This document shows positions 5,001 to 63,677 of a stretch of DNA of 64,000 nucleotides, one piece after another. The first letter of the stretch is position 1. The number at the start of each line of letters is the position of its first letter. The stretch comes from Trebouxia sp. TZW2008 (lineage: Eukaryota; Chlorophyta; Trebouxiophyceae; Trebouxiales; Trebouxiaceae): contig BDIU01000099.1 of NCBI GenBank assembly GCA_002118135.1, positions 1 to 64,000 of the forward strand. Reading direction: 5' to 3'. The position numbers and the translations under genes were made by a program. The notes below the pieces were generated by a model. The model had not been told where the DNA came from. It saw nothing but the letters and a program-made list of their open reading frames with translations, and did no database searches.

Positions 5001-8000
5001 CATTACCTGCTAGTTGTGCCATCAGGCTTCCTGTCGCCTTTTGGCAGTTCTGACATCCTTGGCTGCACTTGCAGGTCTGGTGCAACAGGCGTTGTATCAC
5101 CTCTTGAGAGCTATATTCAGGCCACCAAAGAGTCCCAGGATTGCCCAAATGACCTGTTTGACATGGAGCACTATCTGGTATACATATTTGGCTCATCGCA
5201 AGCGTTTGCCATTTTGAGCATATCAATAACTGATTTCAGGGCCTGCACACTCTGCTTGGACTGTTCCCATTGTTCTACAATGGGCTTAGACATCTGGTAC
5301 AGCTTGACTGGCAGTGCGCAAAACAGGTTAAGCTGATGTAGTTGGATTGGAATTGTGCCCTGCGCGCCATGGTCATGCCTGAATACTACTCTTGTTATGT
5401 TGTTGTCAGTTGCTGCCAGGTCTGCCACATCTGCCTTGATGCATGCACATGTTTGCACTGTGTGATCATGATTGTCTGCAATAAGGCTGAAAGTCACCTT
5501 GCTGCACTGTCAAACGTCAAAGCTGCTGGCTTGCACACGGTGCTTGCTGTTGCCTGCTGAGCATGGCGCTTGTGCCCATCGTGGTCTTTATACTGCATGG
5601 TCAGATTGGCATACATGGTCATTTGATCAGCTTGCTGTGCACTGTGACATGCTGACTTCAGTGTGCTCTTTGCTGAGCGCAATGCAACTGCATGCGTCTT
5701 GGCCTGCGCCTATGGTCAGCATACTGAAATTCTTTGTGGAAGTGCGGAAAGCTGGCCAGAATATCGATGCGCATCATACATGGTTGGGCTGACATGCTGG
5801 GCAATGCAGAACACTGGGTTCAACCTTACCTCCTTGCTAGGCACTACTCAACTTCTGTTTTGGGCTGACATTGTACTGTGGTATTCAGAGAGCTCGCTGC
5901 AGTTTGCTGTTTGCTAAACATGATACAAATGCTTATAATTACACAAATGCTTACAGATACACTGTGACTGGCATGCTGCACGATACATGACAATGGTGAT
6001 GCGTGTAGCTACAGCATGAGCATGCTGACATCGTGCTGGGCAATGCAGAATGCTGGCTTTAACTTGCTGTTTGCTGGGCATGACACCAGCGCCTCAACCC
6101 TGGCCTGCCTGCTGCTCTTCCTCAAGCAGCAACCCCGCACGCTGCAGAAGTTGCGAGATGAGCAGAGTCAGGTGAGATCCGGAGCAAATTCTGATCTCAA
6201 ACATCATGTGCCATCAGTACTGCTGACCGCAGAAAGAGTAGAACAGCACAGGGTGTACTGTATCCTCCACTTGCATCCTCAGCTCTCAAATGCTAGTGTA
6301 CTCATTTTTAAGAACTGTGTCTAGAAGTGATAGCACGGGCAAGGGATAGGTGCCACTGCTCCAGGCATGATGCCGTATGCAGATGCTGCCATCAAAGAGG
6401 GGCTGCCGCTTGAGTTACCCACTTGCATCCTCAACTTTCAGATGCTAATGTACTCATTCTCATGCATGGTCTCTATAGGTGATAGCTGAACATGGGCAAG
6501 GGATAGACGCCACTGCTCCAGGCATGATGCCGTATGCAGATGCTGCCATCAAAGAGGGGCTGCCGCTTGAGTTACCCACTTGCATCCTCAACTTTCAGAT
6601 GCTAATGTACTCATTCTCATGCATGGTGTCTTTAGGTGATAGCTGAACATGGACGAGAGATAGACGGCACTGGTCTAGGCATGATGCCTTATGCAGATGC
6701 TGCCATCAAAGAAGGTCTGCGCTTGGCTGTGATTGTGCCTGTGACTGTCAGAGTAGCGCTGAAGACCTTTGAACTTGGTGGCTATACAATACCTAAGGTA
6801 CGAAATTTACTTACACTGTGACTGACCGTCATTGTGCCTGTGACTGTGAGAGCAGGGCTGAAGCTTGTCAAGTGCAGCTGTTCATGTCACTCAGTGAGTC
6901 AGCGCATGACTGCACCAAGAGCATGTGACAAATGTGCATGCTGTGCATGTTGCTTGAGATATGGAGGTGGACGTGTAGGGTTACAAGGTGAATTTGGATC
7001 TGTGGAAAGTGTTGGAGGATGATCCCAGGTGGAAGGGCACTGAATTAGACTTGGCGCCAAGCAAATTCAACCCTGACAGGTAAAGCTATGGCATGTTCAG
7101 CTGTCCTCAAGCACATGTCTGTGCTGTGCTTGAGACCCCGTGCTGAGAGCCAGCAGATCTGCGCCCTCTTTGCAGTACGGTATTCTCTCGATATAATGGC
7201 TGCATTGGTAACCAAGAAAAATGTCCTTACATCAAATTGTCCTTATTCACAAGTACCACTGTAGACAGAATGCAGTGCTTGGTTCCCAGTTGCACTGTCC
7301 TTACATCAAGAATGTCCTCATATTGAGTGTGATGTTGAGAAAACACTGTACTTGGCCAGAGTTTTGGCACAGACTTTGACACAATACCAGCAGCTGTGTA
7401 GAAGCAAACAGAAACCTCACATCAAGCTTGTGTGGTGTGAACGTGGCACTTACAAGGGCAGCCACTATCTAGCAGCACAACGCATGGCAGGGATCTACAA
7501 GCAGCTGCTAAAATTTGCTGCATGCTTTGATTTCAAGCTGGCATGCTTGCACAGTCCCCAGGTGCTGCTGATGTTGCGACATTTACAAAGGCTGAGACTG
7601 CACGCTGCACTGAAAGCAAGTATCAAGCGTCATGATGGCTTCAAAGGTCAAGCCATTGTCTGGGGTTTGTCACAAGGCGACATTAGCCCATGTGCTCTCT
7701 ACACCTGACTTAGGTGGCCATATAGGTTGCATGCCTGTGACAGGGTTTCACCAACAAGGGAGAGCCAACAAGCAAAGTATGATAGACCTTCTCAACTATT
7801 TTGAGCTCAAGTTGCATGGGGGCAGGAAGCCTTTGCCATTCCCTCTGCCCCCACAACCCCCCCTTCCCCCTCTATTGTCCCATACCAAGCCCCTCTCCTC
7901 CCCCCAAACTCCTTTCCTTCCCCCAAATAAACCCTCCTCAACCCCCCTCCAAACCCCTCTCCTCCCTGCTCCAAACCCCTCTCCTCCCAGGCGCCATCCC

Positions 8001-61800: not shown

Positions 61801-63677
61801 GTGCGATTGCAAGGTAGGTAACAGGTATGCCTCACCCCGTTTCTGTAGGCCATACAGCAGCAATTTGATCAACAACGATGTCAAAATAAGTTGGTTCGCA
61901 GGTACAACCACGACTCAGTCTCTGGCTGTACTGAAGAAGAGCGGCCACATGTGCATTGTGTTGAATAACAACATGAACAAGATCCAGTTGGCTTCAGGGT
62001 AAGTCCTCTTCTGCTGTTTGTTCTGATACTTTTGCAACAGACAGTGTATAACACATCATTGCAGTGAGACTGTTACAGCTCAATTGGGTTCTTGTCTGTA
62101 TGTGTCACCTTCAAAACAAACTGCGCGTTCATAAGTCGCAAATAGCCTGCTGTTTCATTGGATGCGCCAAACTATAAGGGGTCTTCTTGGCAGCACTTGC
62201 AGGCACTCACACCATACATCTCAACAATGACCAAGAAGCAGTTTTCACGAATAATCCGTCACCGACGCTTGCATGCTGCAGCATTGAGACGACATGAGCA
62301 TTGTTTGTGAATTGCGTATGTCTCTTGGTAGTCATGCGAGGAGTGTGTCTCTTGGTGTAGATGCAACTTGCAAATTGGCCTTGAGCAGCCCAAAATCTTG
62401 TCTTAGATGGTCTTAGCCTGACATTAGAAGTGATATCTGGGTTGACAAAGAGCACCCTGACGTCTGGCCGCAAGTAGCTCAAGCCTGACAGGAGAAATGA
62501 TTTGTAGGTTGGCAAGGGGTTGCATAGAATTTCATCCTAAATGATAATAGCATGATATGAAAAGTTACACGCAGGTTGGCAAAGAGCAGCCTAGGTTTTG
62601 GTCCTAAATGGCACACAACCTTTGCCAAACCTAGTGGGGAAGACATGCAGCAGATTGCCAAGCTCATGGCCGCAGGACAGCTCAGAGCTGTCATTGACAA
62701 AACATTTCCATTGGAGCAAACAGCGTAAGCCAACCTATTATGAGAGGGGAGAAAAAAAACATTTATTGCAAACGGGATGAGCTAGTGCTGAGATGCATAG
62801 CTGTCTGCTATGTGGGCACACTTCTTTGGCAGCAGTTGCTGATTCCAATTGTGACAGACCATGCCCATTGGATCAAGCAGCATAAGCTGTACACATATGC
62901 CAGAATGCCTGGGCGTATGTGCTTGAACGTCCCACATGCAAAGTGAAATTACTGTCAAGCCTGAAGCTGTGATGCACTAGTCCGTGGTATGTGCTCAGTC
63001 CTCTAGCCACAGTTGCTGCTTTTGTTTCATGAAGCTGTGACAGGCTGCATTGCTGTTGCCTGTGCAAATTGTGTCCTTCTGTGTACACAAATGCAACTTT
63101 GTGAAAATATTTCCCAGACCTTGTGCAGAGTCTGCCTGCTAGGGATCCGAACACCAAAAGCCGTGCTGTCAGAAGTGAGAGAGAGTCTCATGCTTTAGCC
63201 AGCCAACAAGACTGATCACATGTGCCACACCGTGGCAATGACTATACGTCCATGAAACTCAGGCAGTCTTATGACATAGTGAATAACCCCCAGATAATCA
63301 TGTTGCGCAAAAGAAGCGCGCATGTCATGACCGCAGCCTTCAAACAAATGAGGATACTTGGCCCGCACCCCAGCCAATGCTCCCTATTCAAACACTAAGT
63401 GCTTTTCATCGCCTAAGGCCCCAGAACCACACCGTGTGCACAGCCTACAGGCTGTACTGGCTGCAACTCTGTGTGCTAATGGCTTGGTATTGTCTACATA
63501 CTTTGCAGCTACCCTGTGCTTCTGGCGTGTGCAAGTGCATCAGGAGCATGTACAGCCCTCATAGGCTCACACCATTTGCCTGTCTTAAGAATAATGGTTC
63601 TCTGCTGCAGGGCAGCACACCAATATGCAGAGACTAGCCATCCAAGCGGCAAAGTGGTGATCAGAGTGTCTTCATAA
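58865..63677 (+). CDS. zinc-free MDR family NADPH:quinone oxidoreductase (zeta-crystallin-like)
   Basis: Nine exons join in phase to about 320 residues: 58865-59038, 59119-59172, 59243-59303, 59393-59505, 60533-60682, 61311-61407, 61902-61998, 62575-62724 and 63611-63677. The GroES-like N-terminal part begins [20 protein letters not shown] and has [12 protein letters not shown] and [27 protein letters not shown] precedes the Rossmann motif [31 protein letters not shown] and [10 protein letters not shown] follow, and the C-terminus ends [10 protein letters not shown]. Length and motif order match the quinone oxidoreductase branch, which uses NADPH to reduce quinones or enones; no zinc-binding Cys set is seen. 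There is no obvious transit peptide. Introns 4 and 7 are filled with decayed copies of exons 4, 5 and 8, and intron 5 carries a SINE-like repeat. Confidence 0.93.
59640..59900 (+). repeat. two downstream copies of oxidoreductase exon 4 tail
   Basis: Around 59656-59722 CCTCCTTTGACCAGGCAAGT then GCCATGCCTGTGGTTATTCA matches the exon 4 tail (TCCTTTGACGAAGCAGCTGC, CATGCCTTTGGTCTCCCTT), followed by a donor-like GGGTGAGG. A second echo with the same leading intron (AGCTAAACCTATGTGCCTGA) starts near 59815 and fuses into an exon 5-like tail near 59885. Period is about 195 bases. Confidence 0.8.
60050..60532 (+). repeat. three decayed upstream copies of oxidoreductase exon 5 (Rossmann motif)
   Basis: Copies near 60052-60140, 60215-60325 and 60385-60475 each begin like TTGAAGCCTGCAAAGATCAA and continue GCGTGTGCTGATTC, GGAGC[AT]AGTGGTGG. 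The functional exon (60533-60682) follows about 165 bases after the last. The decayed copies contain stops (GGGTAGCGTG, GGATTAGCAG) or lose the GASGGVG codons. Intron segments with TTGCTTGCTGAAC and GTGCAACTAGCACA also repeat with the same period. Confidence 0.93.
60705..60792 (+). mobile_element. SINE-like dispersed repeat, copy 4
   Basis: AT-rich head (AATAATAGTAATTGTTACAC), then TTCCAGCACATGTGCCAGGT, GGCCCAAGTCTTGCCTCGCC and AGGCAGGCTTGTTCTCAACG. It lies in oxidoreductase intron 5 in the gene's orientation. Confidence 0.6.
61738..61790 (+). repeat. (TTGG)n tetranucleotide microsatellite
   Basis: About 12 copies of GGTT/GATT units in oxidoreductase intron 6, with minor interruptions. Confidence 0.9.
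62380..62575 (+). repeat. decayed upstream copies of oxidoreductase exon 8 head
   Basis: Before exon 8 (62575, GTTGGCAAAGAGCAGCCTAG), related segments occur at about 62384 (GAGCAGCCCAAAATCTTGTC), 62449 (GTTGACAAAGAGCACCCTGA) and 62507 (GTTGGCAAGGGGTTGCATAG), each preceded by CTGACA-like intron sequence. Spacing is about 60-65 bases. None continues into the full exon. Confidence 0.8.
63176..63230 (+). repeat. dispersed repeat shared with 36248-36330
   Basis: GTGAGAGAGAGTCTCATGCT then TTTAGCCAGCCAACAAGACT and GATCACATGTG matches the block at 36248. Here it lies in the last oxidoreductase intron. The 8-base hairpin seen at 36302 is not present. Confidence 0.55.

Follow-up and report, generated by a model that had tools for sequence, protein, structure and literature searches.

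The first 64 kb of contig BDIU01000099.1 (C96) of the green alga Trebouxia sp. TZW2008, referred to below as the window, carry predicted genes for a cytochrome P450, a BTB-BACK protein, a DNA ligase (LIG), an antiporter, an MSS116-type DEAD helicase and an oxidoreductase. Alignment confirmed that introns of the P450, ligase, helicase and oxidoreductase genes contain decayed copies of the edges of neighbouring exons, as a preliminary description of the window had proposed, and that these copies lie on the expected sides: acceptor-type copies, with acceptor and exon head, upstream of the exon, and donor-type copies, with exon tail and donor, downstream of it. The sequence surveyed amounted to 304 kb (the window, C96:64-104 kb and C181:50-250 kb), to which eight P450 loci were added; both the contigs and the loci were our own, non-random choice from a 68.5-Mb genome of 527 contigs. 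A total of 145 copies were found on 68 of 243 confidently predicted exons.

In the P450 gene (forward strand), local alignment placed a decayed upstream copy with acceptor and exon head at 5788..5843, its source being 6024-6080 (exon starting near 6043); the start coordinate given in the preliminary description falls within this copy. Farther along, Tandem Repeats Finder reported an array of three 157-bp units. Its farther upstream copy, consisting of acceptor region and exon head with the AG lost (6267..6412, also aligned), is followed by a second such copy (6415..6569, self-BLAST and alignment) and by the exon 6636..6797, which contains AIKEGLRL and is taken as the copy in use; its limits were read from the sequence and it overlaps a PF00067 match at 6639-6806. 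We take AIKEGLRL to be the ExxR-type motif. A copy of the exon-interior segment 6717-6764, without a donor, was aligned downstream at 6816..6863. Within the array (6267-6725), the second copy and the functional unit hardly differ in their intron part, whereas the exon part of the functional unit differs at places where both copies mostly agree. A (TCAA)n microsatellite of about 39 copies lies in the same P450 region (4685-4838).

Two genes on the reverse strand gave downstream copies. A 78-bp copy in the BTB-BACK gene (12306..12383; self-BLAST and alignment) is 79% identical to 12536-12613, which adjoins the BACK domain match PF07707; the exon end beside it is not fixed. In the ligase gene, copies A (16380..16474) and B (16196..16282) both align with the tail and donor of exon 16598-16782. 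The ligase region (16000-24700) has DRMBL and UBA-like matches upstream of ATP-dependent ligase matches, and by this order of domains looks like a LIG6-type fusion, the name LIG6 coming from the preliminary description.

The helicase, on the forward strand, shares 68% identity with a Trebouxia sp. C0010 protein; for two other proteins the figure is 72-75%. Exon 51921-52040 has an upstream copy of its acceptor and head at 51762..51850 (84% identity with 51897-51985, a junction-class cluster) and a downstream copy of its tail and donor at 52126..52196, which is 94% identical, differs from the exon at four positions, all synonymous, and has an intron flank little like that of the exon. The remaining helicase copies were placed by alignment: acceptor and head of exon 52795-52982 at 52539..52660, where the residues TNI.SEI common to Trebouxia-like homologues are retained; acceptor and head of exon 53791-53962 at 53590..53694, with one frameshift; tail and donor of exon 54539-54738 at 54865..54959 and again at 55022..55123; tail of exon 55887-56051 at 56117..56227, with further copies at 56336-56391 and 56470-56560; and acceptor and head of exon 57507-57866 at 57252..57297. 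This last, C-terminal exon encodes a glycine-/arginine-rich tail with imperfect 12-bp tandem repeats. The oxidoreductase (forward strand) has a downstream copy of tail and donor of the predicted exon 59393-59505 at 59668..59799 (68% identical) and an array of upstream acceptor and head copies of exon 60533-60632 at 59878..60471, with an offset of 171 bp and the nearest copy at 60387-60471. For the antiporter the earlier claim proved weak or unclear, as the pair 40158-40195/40520-40557 joins two predicted exons. An array of 69-71 bp units at 49307-49658 has no link to any confident exon.

Exons were predicted with a small gene finder, written for this analysis and self-trained on the same 304 kb, which converged on a donor MAG/GTRAG and a sharp acceptor TGCAG/ and gave 428 exons, 243 of them confident after filtering by coding score and length. 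The acceptor consensus of this model is strict, with frequencies of 0.76 for T, 0.83 for G and 0.95 for C before the AG. The finder recovered helicase and ligase exons that have Pfam support, but it ran genes together, yielding 19 'genes' over the 304 kb, and overlooked some exons; as it missed the BTB-BACK gene and P450 exon 6636-6797, their copies were counted as noncoding, against the earlier claim, and the junction count of the window was lowered. Oxidoreductase exon 59393-59505 fell below the confidence filter, and its cluster was likewise counted as noncoding. A better-supported set was formed by nine gene spans with 82 exons, eight of the spans having a Pfam match; that at C181 152.4-154.5 kb (joined coordinates) had none, and an AMP-binding match fell below the Pfam cut-off. 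The set of single-copy genes used below also takes in joined C181 144.3-157.1 kb, without Pfam support, and window 10-24700. Names of C181 genes beyond those given by Pfam (NDR, RecD2-like, cyclase-like, Sel1) are in part our assumption.

The copies are almost all direct. Self-BLAST of the window gave 45 near matches (<5 kb), of which 43 were direct and two were self-palindromes; near matches of at least 50 bits were direct or inverted at 190:3 in C181 50-250 kb and 80:1 in C96 1-104 kb. The eight P450 loci gave 38 direct and no inverted pairs, some of them counted twice since two pairs of loci overlap, and two loci were off-pattern: L003 with one copy on the wrong side, L005 with whole-exon copies. 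Among 282 near direct pairs in the 304 kb, the copy lay upstream in 46 acceptor-type pairs and downstream in five, and downstream in 43 donor-type pairs and upstream in two; neither 46 nor 43 was attained in any of 200 circular shifts. The pairs fell into 129 clusters, with a median smallest offset of 154 bp. Sixty-seven of these crossed a junction on the expected side and three on the wrong side, 35 were noncoding only, eight were exon-interior copies in introns, eight exon-internal, five exon-exon and three whole-exon, whereas random placement predicted 15.9 on the expected side, 10.6 on the wrong side, 78.5 noncoding and 9.6 interior copies. The earlier proposal of direct, junction-spanning duplication with a one-sided geometry, distinct from whole-exon duplication, is thus borne out, and the excess was found at junctions, with exon interiors close to the null.

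The same tendency was seen in subsets. Exons with a copy numbered 8 of 47 in the window, 8 of 27 in C96:64-104 kb and 52 of 169 in C181, where all 12 predicted gene models, some of them merged, carried at least one. In the nine supported spans, 39 of 47 clusters were of the junction class, six were intron-only, one interior and one whole-exon (expected junction:noncoding ratio 0.52). With stricter exons (coding score >12) the ratio was 62:49 against an expected 0.15, and in the window alone there were eight junction and seven noncoding clusters (expected ratio 0.21). Within the supported genes, a copy was present in 34 of the 73 introns bounded by confident exons, and local duplicates took up 9,079 of the 42,763 bases of intron (21%). 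The preliminary view that the process is genome-wide gained from the copies on other contigs and in every C181 model; the evidence covers the 304 kb and the eight P450 loci.

An assembly error, named in the preliminary description as what would refute it, or a dispersed element is hardly credible as the source of these matches: the main classes of pairs are 81-85% identical on average, too different for one locus read twice, no N occurs within the 200 kb of C181, and the helicase intron and the P450 array had no other match in the genome in a DNA search that skips very common words.

The one-sided geometry by itself reflects a splicing filter, since any duplication that preserves the mRNA has to look so, and it need not imply a process aimed at junctions. 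The number of junction clusters is another matter. It could be argued that tandem duplication is uniform, that splicing tolerates only junction-spanning and intron-only events, and that pairs with one member in an exon remain detectable for longer, decay being confined to the other member. We simulated 4,800 such tandem duplications, placed uniformly and compatible with splicing, letting them decay neutrally and applying a detection limit close to that used for the real data; the parameters were our own choice, taken from noncoding pairs. Old simulated events (0.25-0.40 substitutions per site) resembled the data in several ways, giving junction:noncoding ratios of 1.23 to 10.3, ends within 25 bp of the junction in 66-74% and a length/offset of 0.68-0.51, and the geometry follows from tolerance alone. 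However, up to 0.25 substitutions per site, which includes the observed similarity (about 82%), the simulated ratio was only 0.21-0.35, whereas the observed ratios by identity class were 1.90, 2.00, 2.00 and 3.60, the highest being that of the most similar class (18:5); nor does the share of copies ending short, given below, fall with rising identity. Observed ratios are five to seventeen times the simulated value, by identity class; therefore, detection bias alone is insufficient for the junction excess, and old age combined with such bias was rejected as an explanation, some statistics fitting and the identity-matched ratio not. We consider uniform duplication without a hotspot unlikely. The junction excess goes beyond the splicing filter, and the cause of the hotspot is unproven. 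Stop-codon edges were taken as a control, and a spanning duplicate was found at one of nine stop codons, a number too small to compare.

Some copies are arranged in regular steps. On C181, the RecD2-like gene has three upstream copies spaced 204-205 bp apart and an NDR-type kinase exon has five downstream copies spaced 123-136 bp apart; the P450 of the window has three units at 152-157 bp. Similarity to the exon was greater in the nearer copy 49 times and in the farther copy 24 times, a pattern that, with the regular steps, fits duplication recurring outward from the exon. Donor-type copies lay no closer than 49 bp to their exon and acceptor-type copies no closer than 23 bp, the nearest ones being commonest at 60-80 bp on the donor side and at 60-80 or 100-150 bp on the acceptor side. 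The gaps and flanks of short copies were mostly unique, a local direct match of at least 36 bits occurring in seven gaps and 14 flanks of 52 such copies and an inverted one in none. In the NDR-type kinase array (L027-L028, C181 joined 189333-190236), copy 189853-189925 changes abruptly within one unit, its intron part being closer to the functional one than the start of its exon part.

The inner copies decay, as had been proposed. In single-copy genes this decay is nearly neutral: changes confined to the copy comprised 155 synonymous, 274 nonsynonymous and 12 stop changes, 35% being synonymous against a neutral expectation of 28.7%, and 31 of 35 indels shifted the frame (74 of 79 over all genes). 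Splice cores nevertheless persist in many copies, with AG kept in 61 of 67 of acceptor type and GT in 47 of 61 of donor type, so the decoy splice sites described earlier are real as sequence. Noncoding pairs showed little codon periodicity (combined z 1.8).

Could the copies be functional alternative or mutually exclusive exons? Some differ from the exon mainly at synonymous sites, as in helicase 52126-52196 (4 of 4), pairwise ratios of nonsynonymous to synonymous substitution rates (dN/dS) over all genes were 0.24-0.35 by side, stops over all genes are below neutral, and the AG is usually kept. Against this stand the frameshifting indels, the absence beyond controls of an opposite splice site at the truncated ends, and the order of the helicase homologues, which a second PTRELASQ segment would break. 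Strong donors just after acceptor-type copies were rarer than in controls (9% vs 24%), and complete cryptic exons may be selected against. Because opposite sites are missing and strong donors few, the copies are unlike complete exons; decoys as complete exons were rejected on the first of these grounds, and we regard a function as alternative exons as very improbable, with the caveat that part of the set outside the single-copy genes may be true repeat proteins. Constraint on the copies as coding sequence was also considered, a first estimate having given w of 0.23-0.37 in the four main classes and 0.62 in six whole-exon pairs, and was rejected, the frameshifts and the single-copy three-way test being near neutral. 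Constraint over all genes is, we think though without proof, attributable to repeat-type genes and to synonymous change on the exon side. Some edge copies in repeat-type genes may be real repeat exons; genes of this type rich in edge copies are L016 (C181 joined 77251-77526, FAST_1 match) and L026-L027 (joined 179420-184607), the latter presumably Sel1-like from its appearance.

Taken together, these observations are probably best explained by serial local duplication of exon-edge segments that is hidden by splicing. An error of DNA repair or replication would place a direct copy of about 70-275 bp spanning a splice junction in the intron next to it. If the outermost splice site still worked, the mRNA would be unchanged and the event tolerated, whereas duplications within exons or of whole exons would not be. 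The inner copy would then become intron and decay nearly neutrally, and its similarity to the exon could favour more duplication, by re-duplication or unequal exchange. The expected outcome would be short, regularly spaced arrays whose youngest member tends to be the one closest to the exon.

Not all of the data sit easily with serial duplication, and the points against it are of three kinds. The first concerns the junction. Of the 144 copies measured (one less than 12 bp away was excluded), 128 reach the junction and the 16 that end more than 8 bp short of it were set aside; among the 128, similarity was lost within 25 bp past the junction on the intron side in 78, the simulated share ending within the same limits being 27%. 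The share of such short ends was 0.50 of 8, 0.63 of 46, 0.61 of 51 and 0.67 of 21 copies in order of rising exon identity, and residual intron homology was detected in 16 of 70 short-end cases (3.5 expected). The second is that all 61 junction-reaching donor-type copies lie at least 49 bp from their exon, which strict tandem duplication fits only in part. The third concerns decay and age. The copies retain some synonymous bias, the ratio of nonsynonymous to synonymous proportions (pN/pS) in single-copy genes being 0.42 beside our neutral expectation of about 0.55 for a copy next to an exon with the same neutral rate; the three-way test over all genes gave 258 synonymous, 361 nonsynonymous and six stop changes, with stops clearly below neutral; and very similar pairs are few (5 of 270 at 95% identity or more), so that an ongoing, steady process is not evident. 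With pairs above 95% so scarce, duplication may have come in an earlier burst or may now be slow, and its activity may have been higher in the past.

Plain tandem duplication is therefore not the whole account, because 78 of 128 copies lose similarity so close to the junction. The claim of repeated tandem duplication held for the regular arrays and the greater similarity of nearer copies, but agrees less well with these short copies and with the spacing of the donor type. It is possible, though in our view improbable, that a process linked to transcription or splicing copies an exon end, including the splice core, 50-100 bp into the intron. The ends of similarity cluster just beyond the core: on the donor side 25 of 82 fall at +2 to +7, and on the acceptor side 40 of 113 lie 3-20 bp inside the intron; few copies stop short of the junction; the short form occurs at 76% of 55 single-copy junctions (one copy per junction); no junction-reaching donor-type copy is nearer than 49 bp; and the excess is greatest in the most similar class. 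However, the other 50 of the 128 copies run further into the intron, more like plain tandem units, the residual intron homology noted above also counts against such copying, the one spanning duplicate at nine stop codons offers too few cases for comparison, and we know of no mechanism of this kind.

Gene conversion of old tandem duplications, by which the exon part would be kept similar by the real exon and the intron part would drift beyond recognition, would account both for the junction excess and for similarity that breaks off sharply at the junction whatever the identity. A few arrays held long identical runs, significant at the 1% level in 6 of 83 against 0.8 expected and at the 5% level in 9 of 83 against 4.2. 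Yet copies whose similarity ends at the junction showed little patchiness (4 of 53 significant at the 5% level against 2.7 expected), and noncoding pairs ought to be converted too; conversion as a general cause was rejected for this weak evidence from runs, and as the main explanation it seems doubtful. Plain tandem duplication, splice-anchored copying and old duplications maintained by conversion each account for part of the data. It is conceivable, though in our view unlikely, that exon edges are a duplication hotspot through splice-anchored repair coupled to transcription or splicing, and that introns of this lineage grow in considerable part from their own flanking exons.

A direct precedent for single events exists in the potato RNA-dependent RNA polymerase (RdRp) gene, where a tandem duplication across an intron-exon boundary made a new intron (Ma, Lan and Niu 2016, PMC4974935). 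The duplicated segment, the 3′ part of an intron with the 5′ part of the next exon in direct orientation, is that of the acceptor-type copies, and direct local duplication crossing an intron-exon boundary on the expected side was found here in 67 of 129 clusters. A head-to-tail whole unit including the intron part was clear in some arrays, 78 of 128 copies having no intron similarity beyond 25 bp. Unlike the single potato event, with its new intron and altered transcript, the copies in Trebouxia affect acceptor as well as donor sides, in many cases more than once in a gene, and would stay intronic and decay. Tandem duplication is described as an established source of introns in PMC3443670, and the intron gain of Hellsten 2011, as summarised in PMC3443670 and PMC4974935, resembles the present case in being an intragenic tandem duplication with the mRNA restored by splicing; it would leave one copy at the donor and the other at the acceptor, with an offset equal to the intron length. 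Intron gain of the Rogers type, from duplicated AGGT, was not supported, the donor-acceptor form occurring in 1 of 282 pairs, nor were introner elements, probes from the helicase intron and P450 array matching only themselves and the local exon. Mutually exclusive or whole-exon duplication was not supported either, with 3 of 129 whole-exon clusters and the reading frame not kept.

Small tandem duplications from staggered breaks, through CST/Pol alpha-primase and end joining, are the commonest insertions of <100 bp in the human genome according to passages of PMC8355091; they are likewise short and direct and offer a possible mechanism of birth, and splice sites go unmentioned in those passages, unlike the focus on junctions here. 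No report of dense exon-edge copies in introns was found in searches of the open-licence literature, and nothing useful on Trebouxia introns. Internal gene duplication reportedly affected 8-17% of genes in the survey of Gao and Lynch (2009). Frequent short exonic and intronic duplications inside genes would be common to that survey and ours; by comparison, 34 of 73 introns in our supported genes had a copy, and junctions were strongly over-represented. Thus single junction-spanning cases are already published, and it is the density and the concentration at splice sites that look unusual.

If the pattern is genome-wide, close to half of all introns of ordinary genes would retain remnants of the adjacent exon, local duplicates would make up about one fifth of intron sequence, and decoy sites with intact AG or GT would lie close to the real ones; in algae of this kind, gene finders and homology searches might then predict exons that are not real. 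Intron growth would have a definite source and near-exons would be constantly available, and both the origin of intron sequence and the rejection of near-perfect decoys by splicing would become directly testable. Should the junction excess be confirmed with RNA-based gene models, a process of duplication with a preference for exon edges would be indicated.

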